A stretch of DNA of 64,000 nucleotides from a virus, in the IMG/VR virus record IMGVR_UViG_3300015366_000202, positions 1 to 64,000 of that record. One strand, given 5' to 3'. This document shows positions 34,353 to 39,176 of the stretch, in pieces. Under the pieces are notes generated by a model. That model had not been told where the DNA came from. It worked only from the letters and a program-made list of their open reading frames with translations, and made no database searches. Every line of letters starts with the position of its first letter. Position 1 is the first letter of the stretch. The position numbers were made by a program, and so were the translations under genes.

Positions 34353-35747
34353 CTATTCGTTAGACCTATTGCGAATCTCGTCAAACGTGTATTCTTTAAC
34401 CAGCTTACCATTTTCAAATATTGTTTCCAGTACTGGTTTCCATTCAACCCCACGATCCGCCCAATTAGTGGGCTTTTCGATAGATGATTGATATTCACCA
34501 CCACATTCCCATAGCTCAATTCGTCCTTTCTTGCTGCGCTTTCCTGAATCTGTAATTGGATCTTTCTGTACATCTTCCCAAACATCATCAATACAAGCGG
34601 ATGAACATTTCATAGCAAATTTTGCGGTATCTCGGACAACACCTTGAAGTAGAGCACCACCCATACCAAATGCGATGTTATCTGCACTCCATCCATTTAC
34701 TTCAAACGTGTGTAGAATTGATTCAATGGTATTTTCGTTGACACCATCGCCTTGAATCAGTCTTACATGATTCAGTACTTTGTATCCCTTAGAGTTTTTA
34801 ATGTAACCAAATTTACTACCCAGAATCTCAATTAGCTTGATATTGACTTCTACAGGGTCACCTGAATCAGGACGGATAACAACAACCGCACCGCTGTCGA
34901 TAACTTCCTGTCTTAGTTCTTCACCCCACAGTTTTTCTGCGGCATTAAACACATCATAACTATCAGATACGCATGCTAGGATAGCACCCGGTTTTGCATA
35001 ATTTTTCAACATGTTTCTATATGCATCAACTTCACGGTCTCTGCCCCATGAAGTCACAGTGCTGTGCTCCATTGCTGGAATAGAGAAACCAGCAACACCG
35101 GCATCGTAATATTCTCTTGCATACAAGAGTCCAGTAATATTATCAGTACCCATGAAATTTACAAGGTGAGCAGCACCACCAATACCAACACTTTCCATAC
35201 TTGACCCACCACGAGCACCAAAATCATGCAATTTGAAATTGATACCAGCAGGATCACCTGTTAGATTTAGGTATGGTAGAATAATGTCTTTAATTGACCT
35301 ACTTAGTGTAGCGACCGTGGTTGGATACCATACCGCACGTAATAATGCAGTCTCTGCTTGAGTGGTTAACCAAAAGCAATTTGTGTCTGTGGCTTCAATC
35401 GTAACGAGAACGTTACTGGTTGGCAGAATAGTGCCTTCTGGTACAGCCCGAATACGTAATGGCAAATAACCATTGTGTTTATCTAAAATATATTCCCATC
35501 CTGCACGATAGAATGGCACACCATGTGCTGTGAGAATCTCGTCTGCAATGGTAATATCTTCTTTGGTGATTGGCTTGGTTAGATAATCCTTAATGAATAT
35601 CTGTAGCCCAAAGAATAGAGTCTTTTCCCACGCACCACCACGGGATTCGATATAAGAATATACACCAGTGGTATTTGGTGGATATTGGTTATACATCGAA
35701 GTTTTGTACGAATCTAAATTAAGTATGATATTATTTTCTAGTTTCAT
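34353..35747 (-). CDS. nadV: Nicotinamide phosphoribosyltransferase NadV
   Basis: The 464-residue protein matches the full-length NAMPT/NadV family, which converts nicotinamide and PRPP to NMN. Key segments are NLDSYKTSMYNQYPP, HDFGARGGSSMES (176-180 core), the catalytic-His motif AMEHSTVTSWG (H228), RPDSGDP (292-298), LIQGDGVNE and FGMGGALLQ. With the NadM-Nudix enzyme at 37265 it forms the two-step NAD+ salvage route known from vibriophage KVP40 (NadV-NatV) and from phage NAD+-reconstitution systems. It has its own sigma70 promoter and a hairpin at the 5' end of its leader; GGAG lies before the ATG. Confidence 0.96.
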   Translation of the reverse strand: MKLENNIILNLDSYKTSMYNQYPPNTTGVYSYIESRGGAWEKTLFFGLQIFIKDYLTKPITKEDITIADEILTAHGVPFYRAGWEYILDKHNGYLPLRIRAVPEGTILPTSNVLVTIEATDTNCFWLTTQAETALLRAVWYPTTVATLSRSIKDIILPYLNLTGDPAGINFKLHDFGARGGSSMESVGIGGAAHLVNFMGTDNITGLLYAREYYDAGVAGFSIPAMEHSTVTSWGRDREVDAYRNMLKNYAKPGAILACVSDSYDVFNAAEKLWGEELRQEVIDSGAVVVIRPDSGDPVEVNIKLIEILGSKFGYIKNSKGYKVLNHVRLIQGDGVNENTIESILHTFEVNGWSADNIAFGMGGALLQGVVRDTAKFAMKCSSACIDDVWEDVQKDPITDSGKRSKKGRIELWECGGEYQSSIEKPTNWADRGVEWKPVLETIFENGKLVKEYTFDEIRNRSNE

Positions 35748-35775
35748 TTTTTAAATCTCCTTTAAAATTAAATTG

Positions 35776-35794
35776 CCCCAAGTCTATCTTGAGG
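35776..35794 (-). promoter_or_regulatory. 5'-leader hairpin of nadV
   Basis: On the transcript strand CCTCAAG-ATAGA-CTTGGGG forms a 7-bp stem (one G-U pair) with loop AUAGA. It begins about 4-5 nt after the predicted start of transcription. The nadM leader has the same loop and middle stem with compensating outer pairs (38319-38337). It may protect the 5' end or regulate translation. Confidence 0.6.
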
Positions 35795-35804
35795 ACTTCT
35801 CAAC

Positions 35805-35833
35805 ATTATAACAAAAAGTTCAACCAAATTCAA
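35805..35833 (-). promoter_or_regulatory. Sigma70-type promoter of nadV
   Basis: TTGAAT, a 17-nt spacer and a perfect TATAAT on the minus strand. It overlaps the last codons of the macrodomain gene, so nadV can be expressed independently of the upstream cluster. Confidence 0.75.
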
Positions 35834-36329
35834 CCAATGAAGTTTGGCAAGCATTATTAGAAACTATACTTGCAAACTCTTCGATCATATTAATAATGCG
35901 GGTTTTATCACCACAAGCCAATCCCATACCAATATACGGAAACCCAAAACGCATTCCGACATGCATACCATAGATAAAAGACAATTTCTGTAGAATTAGT
36001 TGGAATGAATTATATTCAAATACATCCCTTCTTGCACCAGAAACATTAATATTATATTGTGTGTATGCATTGATCACAGTAAAAGAAGATGCTGGGGATG
36101 AATCTGTTGCTGGTATAATTATCTCAGCATGAGTATAATTTCCCAATTTGTTATAGTCACCCCATTCTGATTGCTGATCCACAATCCATGCTGGCTCACA
36201 ACGTCCTCTAATTTGCTTGGCAATACCACTACCCATAGTATTGAAACAATTACACCCATGGACAATCACATCAAACTGCCTATCAAACGCCATAGTGATC
36301 AAATCACCTTTTATACGTTGTAACATCAT
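35820..36329 (-). CDS. Macrodomain (ADP-ribose-binding) protein
   Basis: The 169-residue single-domain protein shows the macro signature: GDLI near residue 8, VIVHGCNCFNTMGSGIAKQI (about 21-40) and the C-terminal FPYIGMGLACGDK loop (PxIGxGxxGGD type). Such domains bind ADP-ribose and often remove ADP-ribose or ADP-ribose 1''-phosphate. The active form DarG reverses DarT DNA ADP-ribosylation. Lying between NadV and the NadM-Nudix enzyme, it may recycle ADP-ribose or undo host ADP-ribosylation defences. It shares an ATGA junction with the upstream oxygenase-like gene. Confidence 0.85.
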   Translation of the reverse strand: MMLQRIKGDLITMAFDRQFDVIVHGCNCFNTMGSGIAKQIRGRCEPAWIVDQQSEWGDYNKLGNYTHAEIIIPATDSSPASSFTVINAYTQYNINVSGARRDVFEYNSFQLILQKLSFIYGMHVGMRFGFPYIGMGLACGDKTRIINMIEEFASIVSNNACQTSLVEFG

Positions 36330-36982
36330 TCACTCCTTGAGGTATCATTACGTGTTACCTTACGTGCATACATTTCCCAATCATAATTGAATAGGTAATT
36401 GTGTGAATTATTCTCCAGATTATATCTATTATTAGAAAAAGATAGTTTGACAAATGACCTGAGTATTGGTTCATCCACAACTGGATTGGCATGTACAATA
36501 GTGTTGTCTAATCTATACAATCCATAAGGTACGCAAGTCATTACTGTATCTGGATTAATTTGCTGCTCAAATTGGGCAAGAGAAACTTCGTGATCATCCG
36601 AGATATCATAGAAATCCTGAAATGCATATTTCGTAGGACATACATCAGACCAGATATAGTTTATATCATCCGTACCAAATCCATCACAATGCCATCCAGC
36701 TCTATTTTGTGTATTGCCAGCAACCACCCATGATTTCTTTGCTGTTATGTATACGTATACTGGCAATATTTGATATGTAAGTACATAATCATCCAATGCC
36801 ATTTTGACCAATGATCTAAGTGATTGCAGATTGGGTGGCAATCTGATTTCATCCTTGGCTTCCGGATACATCATAATGGGCAGATTCTGGTACAACATGA
36901 ATTCAGAAATGCGACCCCCAACAATACCTAATCTAGTTGGAAGGGTAAATGAATATCTATCATCTGGTGTTTGGGTATTCAT
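36326..36982 (-). CDS. Probable 2OG-Fe(II) oxygenase in the NAD cluster
   Basis: The 218-residue protein has an HxD...H...R arrangement typical of 2-oxoglutarate/Fe(II) dioxygenases: W-H98-C-D100-G, then V-H164-A-N-P, then L-R175-S-F-V-K-L-S, on a beta-rich jelly-roll-like background. The substrate is unknown. It is coupled by ATGA overlaps to the small gene upstream and to the macrodomain gene downstream, so the three are translated together inside the NAD+ salvage block. Family assignment rests on metal-ligand spacing only; a cupin with other chemistry is the main alternative. Confidence 0.55.
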   Translation of the reverse strand: MNTQTPDDRYSFTLPTRLGIVGGRISEFMLYQNLPIMMYPEAKDEIRLPPNLQSLRSLVKMALDDYVLTYQILPVYVYITAKKSWVVAGNTQNRAGWHCDGFGTDDINYIWSDVCPTKYAFQDFYDISDDHEVSLAQFEQQINPDTVMTCVPYGLYRLDNTIVHANPVVDEPILRSFVKLSFSNNRYNLENNSHNYLFNYDWEMYARKVTRNDTSRSE

Positions 36983-37263
36983 AGAGTCATATCCACTACT
37001 TCAAAAACATACAAGCATAATTCTTGCATGATAAAGAGTTTACATGTACCCAGAAATTTCAATTTACTAGGTTCAGTAACGATTGGCATGCCAGTCTTAT
37101 AACATTCAAAATATCTTTTGGTTGGTTCTTTTTCTGTATCAACCATAGCCCACATAAAGAACATACCATCAACATCTTCTACACGAATGATATTCGCACC
37201 ATCTGGCAAGTTCAATGTAAATTTTTCTTGCACAGGAATCTGATATTTAAAAATTGTATACAT
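36979..37263 (-). CDS. Small DUF7352-like phage protein
   Basis: This 94-residue protein starts MYTIFKYQIPVQEKFTLNLP and continues with a variable GMFFMWAMVD and a terminal LYVFEVVD. The pattern matches small beta-rich phage proteins (DUF7352 type: short N-terminal strand, then WALVD, then VFHVFE). I chose ATG 37263 just after the NadM-Nudix stop rather than an upstream start within it. The function is unknown; it is coupled to the oxygenase-like gene by ATGA. Confidence 0.65.
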   Translation of the reverse strand: MYTIFKYQIPVQEKFTLNLPDGANIIRVEDVDGMFFMWAMVDTEKEPTKRYFECYKTGMPIVTEPSKLKFLGTCKLFIMQELCLYVFEVVDMTL

Positions 37264-37264
37264 A

Positions 37265-38293
37265 TTAACCCCCAATAGCCCATGAAATGATATCGTAATG
37301 ATCTTCAAAACATTCCCAGCGTTTTACTTCTGACAATGGAACCCACTTTGCTTTTTCAGCATCGTCCATGCCCTTTACTCTAGGAAGTTTACCATCAGGC
37401 AATACAATCTTGAATGCATGTGTTACAGTTCTGCCTCTTGATGAACGTCCAATTGCGTCAAATACTTTGCTATCTACGATTGATCCAGCTAGTACAGGCT
37501 CTGGTACTTTGATGCCAGTTTCTTCACGCAGTTCTCGTAACATTGCTGCTTCAATGGATTTATCCGTGTCGGCATTGACAAACCCACCGGGTAGTGCCCA
37601 CAAACCTTTACCGGGTAGTGCTTTTCGCTTGACCATCAGTACATGACCAGACTGAATCACTATTGCATCAGTGGTGACAAAGATTGGTGGATGTGGAAGA
37701 GGTGCGTATGGTATGTTATATTTTTCAACATGTTGTCTTTCAGCAATGATCTGGTTAAATGCATCACGCTCATTGACATGAAATCGTTGCAGGAAAGATA
37801 GTGTTGATAATGGTACAACACCACGAATGAAATTGAAATTTAGATTTTCTCTAAAGAACATTTCGCGGACTGCGGTCGCATCCAATGGTTCAAACAATGG
37901 TGTTTCAATGTGAACCCATTGAGGGAACATGTCTAGGTAATCTGAAGTCCGATCTTTCTTATGCCCAATAATCCCAATGTTGTTATCGATATGGTTGTCG
38001 ATGCAACCATCGACAATTTCTTGTATCTGAGTTATCCATTTTGGATTATTATAGATGTAATCCACCGAATGATTGATCTCATAATTCACATCATATTGAT
38101 TAACAATAGATGAAATCATCTCAGTTCTTTCTTTGAAATTGAATGGATTTTTGTATGTTCTTGGTTGATCACAAGAACCGATAATGATAATTAGATTATC
38201 TGTTAGTGCTGCTGCACGACGAATTGTTTCTTCATGCCCATTATGGCATGGTTGAAAACGTCCAATAAGGACTATATGACTATACACTTTCAT
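37265..38293 (-). CDS. nadM: Bifunctional NMN adenylyltransferase / Nudix hydrolase
   Basis: The 342-residue protein has two enzymes in one chain. Residues 1-170 are a NadM-type NMN adenylyltransferase with GRFQPCHNGH (11-20, the HxGH site) and a C-terminal DATAVREMF (ISxTxxR-type). Residues 205-342 are a Nudix domain with GGFVN..SIEAAMLRELREETGI (Nudix box about 236-259), typical of ADP-ribose pyrophosphatases. The combination equals KVP40 NatV and cyanobacterial NadM-Nudix proteins. It completes NAD+ synthesis from the NMN made by NadV and may also recycle ADP-ribose. AGGAG precedes the start. Confidence 0.95.
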   Translation of the reverse strand: MKVYSHIVLIGRFQPCHNGHEETIRRAAALTDNLIIIIGSCDQPRTYKNPFNFKERTEMISSIVNQYDVNYEINHSVDYIYNNPKWITQIQEIVDGCIDNHIDNNIGIIGHKKDRTSDYLDMFPQWVHIETPLFEPLDATAVREMFFRENLNFNFIRGVVPLSTLSFLQRFHVNERDAFNQIIAERQHVEKYNIPYAPLPHPPIFVTTDAIVIQSGHVLMVKRKALPGKGLWALPGGFVNADTDKSIEAAMLRELREETGIKVPEPVLAGSIVDSKVFDAIGRSSRGRTVTHAFKIVLPDGKLPRVKGMDDAEKAKWVPLSEVKRWECFEDHYDIISWAIGG

Positions 38294-38744: not shown

Positions 38745-38775
38745 GATAAAACACCAGACTATTTCTAGTCTGGTG
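38745..38775 (-). terminator. Intrinsic terminator of the tmRNA transcript
   Basis: CACCAGACT and AGTCTGGTG form a 9-bp stem with a 6-nt loop (38752-38775). On the minus strand it is followed by TTTTATC. Confidence 0.88.
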
Positions 38776-39060
38776 GGTATTTTTGGTAACAAGGTATTTC
38801 CTACCCCGTGGAGATCACGCTGCTAGGCGGTCTGCTCCAAAAAATGCGTCATTTGCATTTATATTTTTTGCTTCTTCGGCTAGGAAACTCCCAACCCTAA
38901 CGGCTTTCACATTGCCGAATTGTCTGGTCTAATACTACGTCGCCTGTCGAACCTATTTCCAGCCCATCAAATATAGTCTGACTTCACAGACAGTAGAGAC
39001 TATATTTGGTGGACTGGGCGAGGAACTGCCCCTCGCGTCCAGTCAACTGTTCTTATTCCT
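38776..39060 (-). ncRNA. ssrA: tmRNA (ssrA), apparently circularly permuted two-piece form
   Basis: On the minus strand the mature 5' end (38965) reads GGGCTGG and is followed by the tmRNA hallmark GGTTCGACAGG. Then come pseudoknot-like inverted repeats (TTCGGC/GCCGAA) and a tag reading frame ending LAA-stop (38815-38871: AKNINANDAFFGADRLAA; translation may resume at the second GCA, giving ANDAFFGADRLAA). A terminator follows about 40 nt later, with no 3' tRNA-like half after the tag. Instead CCAGTCC-A-CCA, able to pair with GGGCTGG (7 bp, one G-U), lies upstream at 39007-39017, after a stem-loop. A 41-nt spacer joins the two ends. This is the acceptor-spacer-coding order of permuted tmRNAs. 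The T-loop is non-standard. Outer limits are approximate. Confidence 0.8.
38966..39006 (-). other. Intervening segment of the permuted tmRNA
   Basis: The spacer between the mature 3' CCA end and the mature 5' end contains most of an 11-bp perfect inverted repeat (38969-38979 with 38997-39007). This would hold the two tmRNA ends side by side before processing. The right arm takes in the terminal A of CCA. Confidence 0.65.
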
Positions 39061-39176
39061 TCATACAATCATAAATATAACTAATAAGGAGTGTCCTGCT
39101 GTTCACAGGTCGGGAATTCCAGTCCTCTAAGTCGTGTTAAACTTATACTTACCACCCTAAACACCACTTCTATTTA

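Follow-up and report, generated by a model that had tools for sequence, protein, structure and literature searches.

A phage-encoded permuted tmRNA gene with a six-pair T-stem at a recurrent locus of T4-type phages

Two-piece tmRNAs in cells and in T4-type phages

tmRNA rescues stalled ribosomes and marks the incomplete protein for degradation. Cellular permuted forms, represented by the Rfam families alpha_tmRNA (RF01849) and beta_tmRNA (RF01850), share their gene order, tRNA-like domain and resume site with the gene described here; they differ from it in the tag. The closest described phage systems are those of the T4-type Kyanoviridae Melnitz (Methylophilales), Mosig and HTVC008M (both Pelagibacter). 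The permuted tmRNA of Melnitz has been published, together with a count of 53 two-piece phage tmRNAs made using ARAGORN (PMC9004378). Those of Melnitz and Mosig are annotated (SsrA), while that of HTVC008M is detectable only; it lies at KC465899.1 145161-145370 and is absent from the record's annotation.

We analyzed a window of 64,000 nt, which is part of an incomplete phage record (a fragment) of 68,518 bp in IMG/VR (IMGVR_UViG_3300015366_000202). The record carries T4-type baseplate, PhoH, exonuclease, gp33-like, gp59-like and gp32-like genes. By baseplate protein (38-39% identity), the isolates nearest to it are Melnitz, HTVC008M and Mosig, all three of which have a permuted tmRNA. The first-pass annotation had regarded a two-piece tmRNA as unusual in a T4-type phage. 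This is refuted by these isolates and by many viral contigs with the gene at the same locus; rarity cannot be argued for an arrangement that has already been published and is common in this phage group.

The window gene resembles those of the three isolates in its permuted order, spacer and locus, and that of Melnitz also in its AND-type tag. It differs from them in several respects. Their tmRNAs are alpha-type according to the Rfam model (for Melnitz also in the tree), whereas the window gene falls in a beta-type phage clade. The tags of the isolate set are ANDNYVPVDYALAA, GEDNFALAA and ANFNEYALAA, in contrast to ANDAFFGADRLAA in the window, and the 6-bp T-stem is a feature of the window gene. 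In Melnitz, the spacer is long and a glutamine riboswitch lies downstream; in the window, an Rfam search found no such riboswitch near the tmRNA gene. The Melnitz spacer (L169, 46.0-46.3 kb) is much longer than those of its relatives and, as judged by eye, seems to contain an ORF running into the coding piece.

Identification and anatomy of the gene

The first-pass annotation had proposed a phage-encoded, permuted two-piece tmRNA on the minus strand, to be checked with covariance models and ARAGORN. The minus strand from 39070 to 38815 matches the Rfam model tmRNA_permuted (RF04321) with 97.6 bits (E 1e-17 in the 64-kb window; gathering cut-off 47 bits), in an alignment spanning model positions 1-213 from end to end. 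The alpha_tmRNA model likewise matches in permuted mode, scoring 66.2 bits against a cut-off of 50 bits. ARAGORN reported 14 tRNAs in the window and did not detect the tmRNA gene. This last result is the one point in favor of a chance resemblance or another structured RNA, to which we assign a negligible probability. Beyond the E-value, the linked motif CCACCA - 20-50 nt - GG....G.AA..RGWTCGACR has one match in the window compared with none in 100 shuffles, and, of 55 cellular permuted tmRNAs that share the 6-bp T-stem, ARAGORN likewise fails to report 31. Chance similarity is refuted by the covariation described below. Sequence and model comparisons thus confirm the identification as a permuted tmRNA gene, and the original proposal is borne out by the RF04321 score, covariation and the T4-type phage neighbors. 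We consider it about 90% probable that the phage owns a permuted ssrA gene with the predicted function. On the minus strand, an acceptor piece is followed by a 41-nt spacer, a coding piece with the tag, and a terminator, as follows:

39041-39070, minus: 5' portion of the acceptor piece; it contains the P2 strand, which pairs with the coding piece (start of the RF04321 match; P2-like covariation)
39018-39036, minus: T-arm with a 6-bp stem, GCGAGG/CCTCGC, and a 7-nt loop, GGCAGTT (sequence; 6/6 pairs)
39007-39017, minus: 3' strand of the acceptor stem, CCAGTCC, discriminator A and encoded CCA (7/7 pairs with 38965-38959, including G3-U70)
38966-39006, minus: intervening 41-nt segment, predicted to be removed from the mature RNA (inverted repeat; strong hairpin extending the acceptor stem)
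38959-38965, minus: 5' strand of the acceptor stem, GGGCTGG, with predicted RNase P cleavage at 38966/38965 (covariation)
38946-38953, minus: GGTTCGAC, signature of the tmRNA D-arm region (sequence; RF04321 alignment)
38901-38917, minus: PK1 stem, CGGC/GCCG (pairing in relatives)
38815-38856, minus: tag reading frame, ANDAFFGADRLAA plus TGA (translation; tag class recurs in viral contigs)
38775-38807, minus: 3' element, GGGGTA...ACCTTGTTACC...TACCC (GGGG/CCTTGTT pairing kept in relatives)
38752-38775, minus: intrinsic terminator, a 10-bp stem then TTTTATCTTG (terminator scan)

The 3' region of the acceptor piece (39040-39007) reads GGAC-GCGAGG-GGCAGTT-CCTCGC-CCAGTCC-ACCA, and the coding piece starts at 38965 with GGGCTGGAAATAGGTTCGACAGG. 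The elements named in the first-pass annotation are all present, including the GGGCTGG 5' end pairing at 7/7 positions with the CCAGTCC-A-CCA acceptor, the 41-nt spacer at 39006-38966 with its 11-bp inverted repeat, and a terminator hairpin soon after the tag (38775-38752). The repeat is perfect (AAATATAGTCT/AGACTATATTT), and the acceptor-spacer-acceptor segment folds as one long hairpin of -30.9 kcal/mol. Immediately upstream of the tmRNA gene, no strong promoter of the sigma-70 type was detected. A perfect sigma-70 consensus promoter (TTGACA-17-TATAAT) is located directly past its terminator (38744-38716, minus), upstream of an uncharacterised 108-aa gene.

The structure is strongly conserved among phage relatives. 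In the acceptor stem, 7/7 pairs are formed in each of 50 phage tmRNAs, which contain 15 different stems; all 350 pairs are standard, compared with a mean of 270 and a maximum of 292 in shuffled controls, and position 3-70 is G-U in 50/50. The T-stem and acceptor stem are paired in all 44 aligned sequences, with compensatory changes. PK1 is paired in 36-44 of these 44 relatives, with several pair types, and the nearly invariant GGGG/CCTTGTT pairing of the 3' element is kept in 42-44. A P2-like helix shows pairs and covariation in 40-44 of 44, with 3 of its 7 predicted pairs non-standard in the window itself. Of 43 genes in the ANDAF tag group, 41 have a spacer with a terminal helix of 7 bp or more, against a mean of about 4 for shuffled spacers; the inverted repeat is therefore a trait of the group.

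While the first-pass annotation identified the T-loop as its weak point, GGCAGTT is only one base off the GGCAGTA common in alphaproteobacterial-type tmRNA and is not aberrant. As judged from the sequence, the real oddity of the T-arm is the sixth base pair of its stem. A 5-bp T-stem with a 7-nt loop is usual in permuted tmRNA, though not universal, and the window gene departs from it. This is not a strict criterion, because a scan covering one genome per species found permuted tmRNAs with 6-bp T-stems in 55 cellular genomes, mostly of Sphingomonas, Sphingomicrobium, Zymomonas and Methylobacterium (loci L177-L231). A sixth pair is thus consistent with normal function in cells. Among the closely examined phage relatives, the T-stem has five pairs or fewer in all except L176; one further viral contig, L175, also has six. 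As in the window, the six pairs of the cellular tmRNAs close a GGCAGT(A/T) loop. However, these RNAs have tags (ANDNEALAIAA and ANDNVVMDARLAA) unlike that of the window and are placed elsewhere in the tree, so their extra pair and that of the window probably arose independently. Since genes with the sixth pair are often missed, surveys based on ARAGORN undercount permuted tmRNAs. A literature search returned no discussion of the variant, which does not show it to be unknown; as far as the tools used show, a 6-bp T-stem that frequently makes ARAGORN overlook such genes is new.

A shared locus and its alleles

The tmRNA gene lies between the exonuclease gene and the gp33/gp59/gp32 block, on the same strand, in eight T4-type phages: the window, G013, G014, G021, G024, Melnitz, Mosig and HTVC008M. 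In the window, it is separated from this block by an NAD-salvage-like cluster. The cluster directly follows the tmRNA unit (34353-38293, minus strand) and encodes a nicotinamide phosphoribosyltransferase, a phosphatase-family protein and a cytidyltransferase/NUDIX protein. Viral contigs show the same locus on a broader scale. Of 79 loci with ANDAF tags, 35 carry markers on both flanks, ordered and oriented as in T4-type phages; the stretch includes a marker on one side in 26 loci and on neither in 18. Only two loci contain a marker out of order. A motif pattern gave 119 viral stretches, some of which are chance matches or host-ssrA-like. The permuted tmRNA is hence a regular, syntenic component of a broad T4-type phage group and not an oddity.

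In phylogenetic trees, the window gene groups with the viral sequence L252 (support 95/91), inside a mostly-phage beta-type clade (100/98) that includes two cellular Burkholderiales-type sequences. The other clade includes alphaproteobacterial cellular tmRNAs and Melnitz. The trees are based on about 270 columns, with weak deep support and long branches, making the exact placement of the window suggestive only. Likewise, the gene appears to be a mosaic, a suggestion based on its 3' element ACCTTGTTACC, which resembles the beta form, and on its T-loop GGCAGTT and PK1, which resemble the alpha form. The closest gene-bearing phages by baseplate protein, G013 and G014, have beta-type tmRNAs; either, therefore, the locus predates the RNA allele that it now carries, or alleles have been swapped at this site. 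A blastn search with the window tmRNA matched no named phage and, among 385 genomes of the class of Sphingomicrobium, gave only a 30-nt match, so that the host is not nameable by this route.

These data bear on whether the gene is instead a decaying or captured host ssrA, carried as a passenger or integration-site remnant without function for the phage. In favor of this reading, ssrA genes often serve as integration sites, the record of the phage is not complete, and some viral-contig matches cluster with cellular alphaproteobacterial tmRNAs. Nevertheless, the window gene is full, its acceptor stem, T-stem and PK1 are intact, and compensatory changes occur across the phage set. It also occupies the same locus and strand in the eight phages and in dozens of contigs, and its nearest relatives are phage rather than cellular. 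We therefore rejected an integration-site remnant and regard a functionless host gene as very improbable. The window gene is a member of an extensive phage lineage, not remarked on until now, that has a tag of its own and keeps a fixed position in the genome. As far as the tools used show, both this member and the conservation of the locus across alpha- and beta-type alleles are new.

Tag class and predicted role

By homology, translation resumes at the GCA codon at 38856, giving the 13-residue tag ANDAFFGADRLAA and a TGA stop at 38815. Of the tag frame proposed in the first-pass annotation, the AND start, LAA end and stop all stand; the alternative 18-residue version does not, since the frame is open upstream but the resume site is this GCA. 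The tag thus has an Ala resume codon and a hydrophobic AA end. A tag-start pattern retrieved about 80 viral contigs with tags of 13-14 residues beginning ANDAF(F/Y) and mostly ending RLAA, though IMG/VR is redundant and these do not equate to 80 independent phages. The same pattern gave no matches in 398 sampled Pseudomonadota genomes. A looser version, run on 399 genomes from the order to which the beta-type cell G664 belongs (presumably Burkholderiales in view of its beta-type tmRNA), matched one; this match is a one-piece tmRNA with the tag ANDAFFAQAANA, without -RLAA. Permuted tmRNAs scored above cut-off in only 2 of 60 sampled genomes of that order. A literature search for the tag letters returned only unrelated words, and the ANDAF(F/Y) phage tag class is new as far as the tools used show.

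Spacer removal, charging by alanyl-tRNA synthetase and delivery by SmpB are expected because they are established for two-piece tmRNAs (Keiler, Shapiro and Williams 2000; Sharkady and Williams 2004; both cited in PMC9004378). The tmRNA would be transcribed together with its phage neighbors, ending at the terminator. The spacer hairpin would bring both acceptor-stem halves together, allowing host RNase P to cut at 38966/38965 and a 3' nuclease to trim after the CCA at 39007. With the spacer removed, the acceptor stem and P2 would hold the two remaining pieces together, and G3-U70 would let the host alanyl-tRNA synthetase charge the RNA. With SmpB, it would then enter stalled ribosomes, resume at GCA 38856 and add A-ANDAFFGADRLAA, the LAA end of which would send the product to ClpXP-type proteases. 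No smpB gene was found in the 68.5-kb record, a fragment, and host SmpB is therefore presumed to serve. The likely benefit to the phage would be that ribosomes keep cycling during mRNA degradation in infection.

An unlikely but more plausible alternative than a functionless host gene is that the phage tmRNA mainly competes with or replaces host tmRNA, as a decoy or re-tagging factor, rather than aiding rescue. In support, the window gene has an unusual T-arm and a tag unlike the cellular ones sampled. There is also a precedent in the tag-less tmRNA of mycobacteriophage DS6A, which inhibits the endogenous tmRNA (PMC11915505). Unlike the DS6A form, however, the window gene retains a complete tag frame ending in LAA, and its T-arm variant is also found in cellular tmRNAs. 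We favor a role in ribosome rescue and tagging. More tentatively, at somewhat less than even odds, Pseudomonadota T4-type phages may keep their own two-piece tmRNA lineage at the exonuclease/gp33-gp59-gp32 locus, with a tag class, ANDAF(F/Y)..(R)LAA, that is rare or absent in cells. If so, the phage would supply an RNA of its own for ribosome rescue and protein tagging, including in hosts with a one-piece tmRNA, and perhaps influence which proteins are degraded. The effect of this tag class on proteolysis during infection is directly testable.

Further phage genes came to light. Pseudomonas phage SM1 (L360, NC_041877, about 54.07-54.37 kb) has an unannotated permuted tmRNA scoring 118.6 bits, with the tag ANDTSFDVRLAA; its host, Pseudomonas aeruginosa, has a one-piece tmRNA of its own. 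Another unannotated permuted tmRNA is found in Stenotrophomonas phage BUCTxx99 (L361, OR529408, about 98.6-98.8 kb; 100.1 bits), with a spacer of only 4 nt (CTAC) that would leave very little room for processing. The tmRNA spacer of the G021 phage (L160, 1572-1607) also scores as abiF RNA (RF03085), with 41.5 bits against a cut-off of 37.
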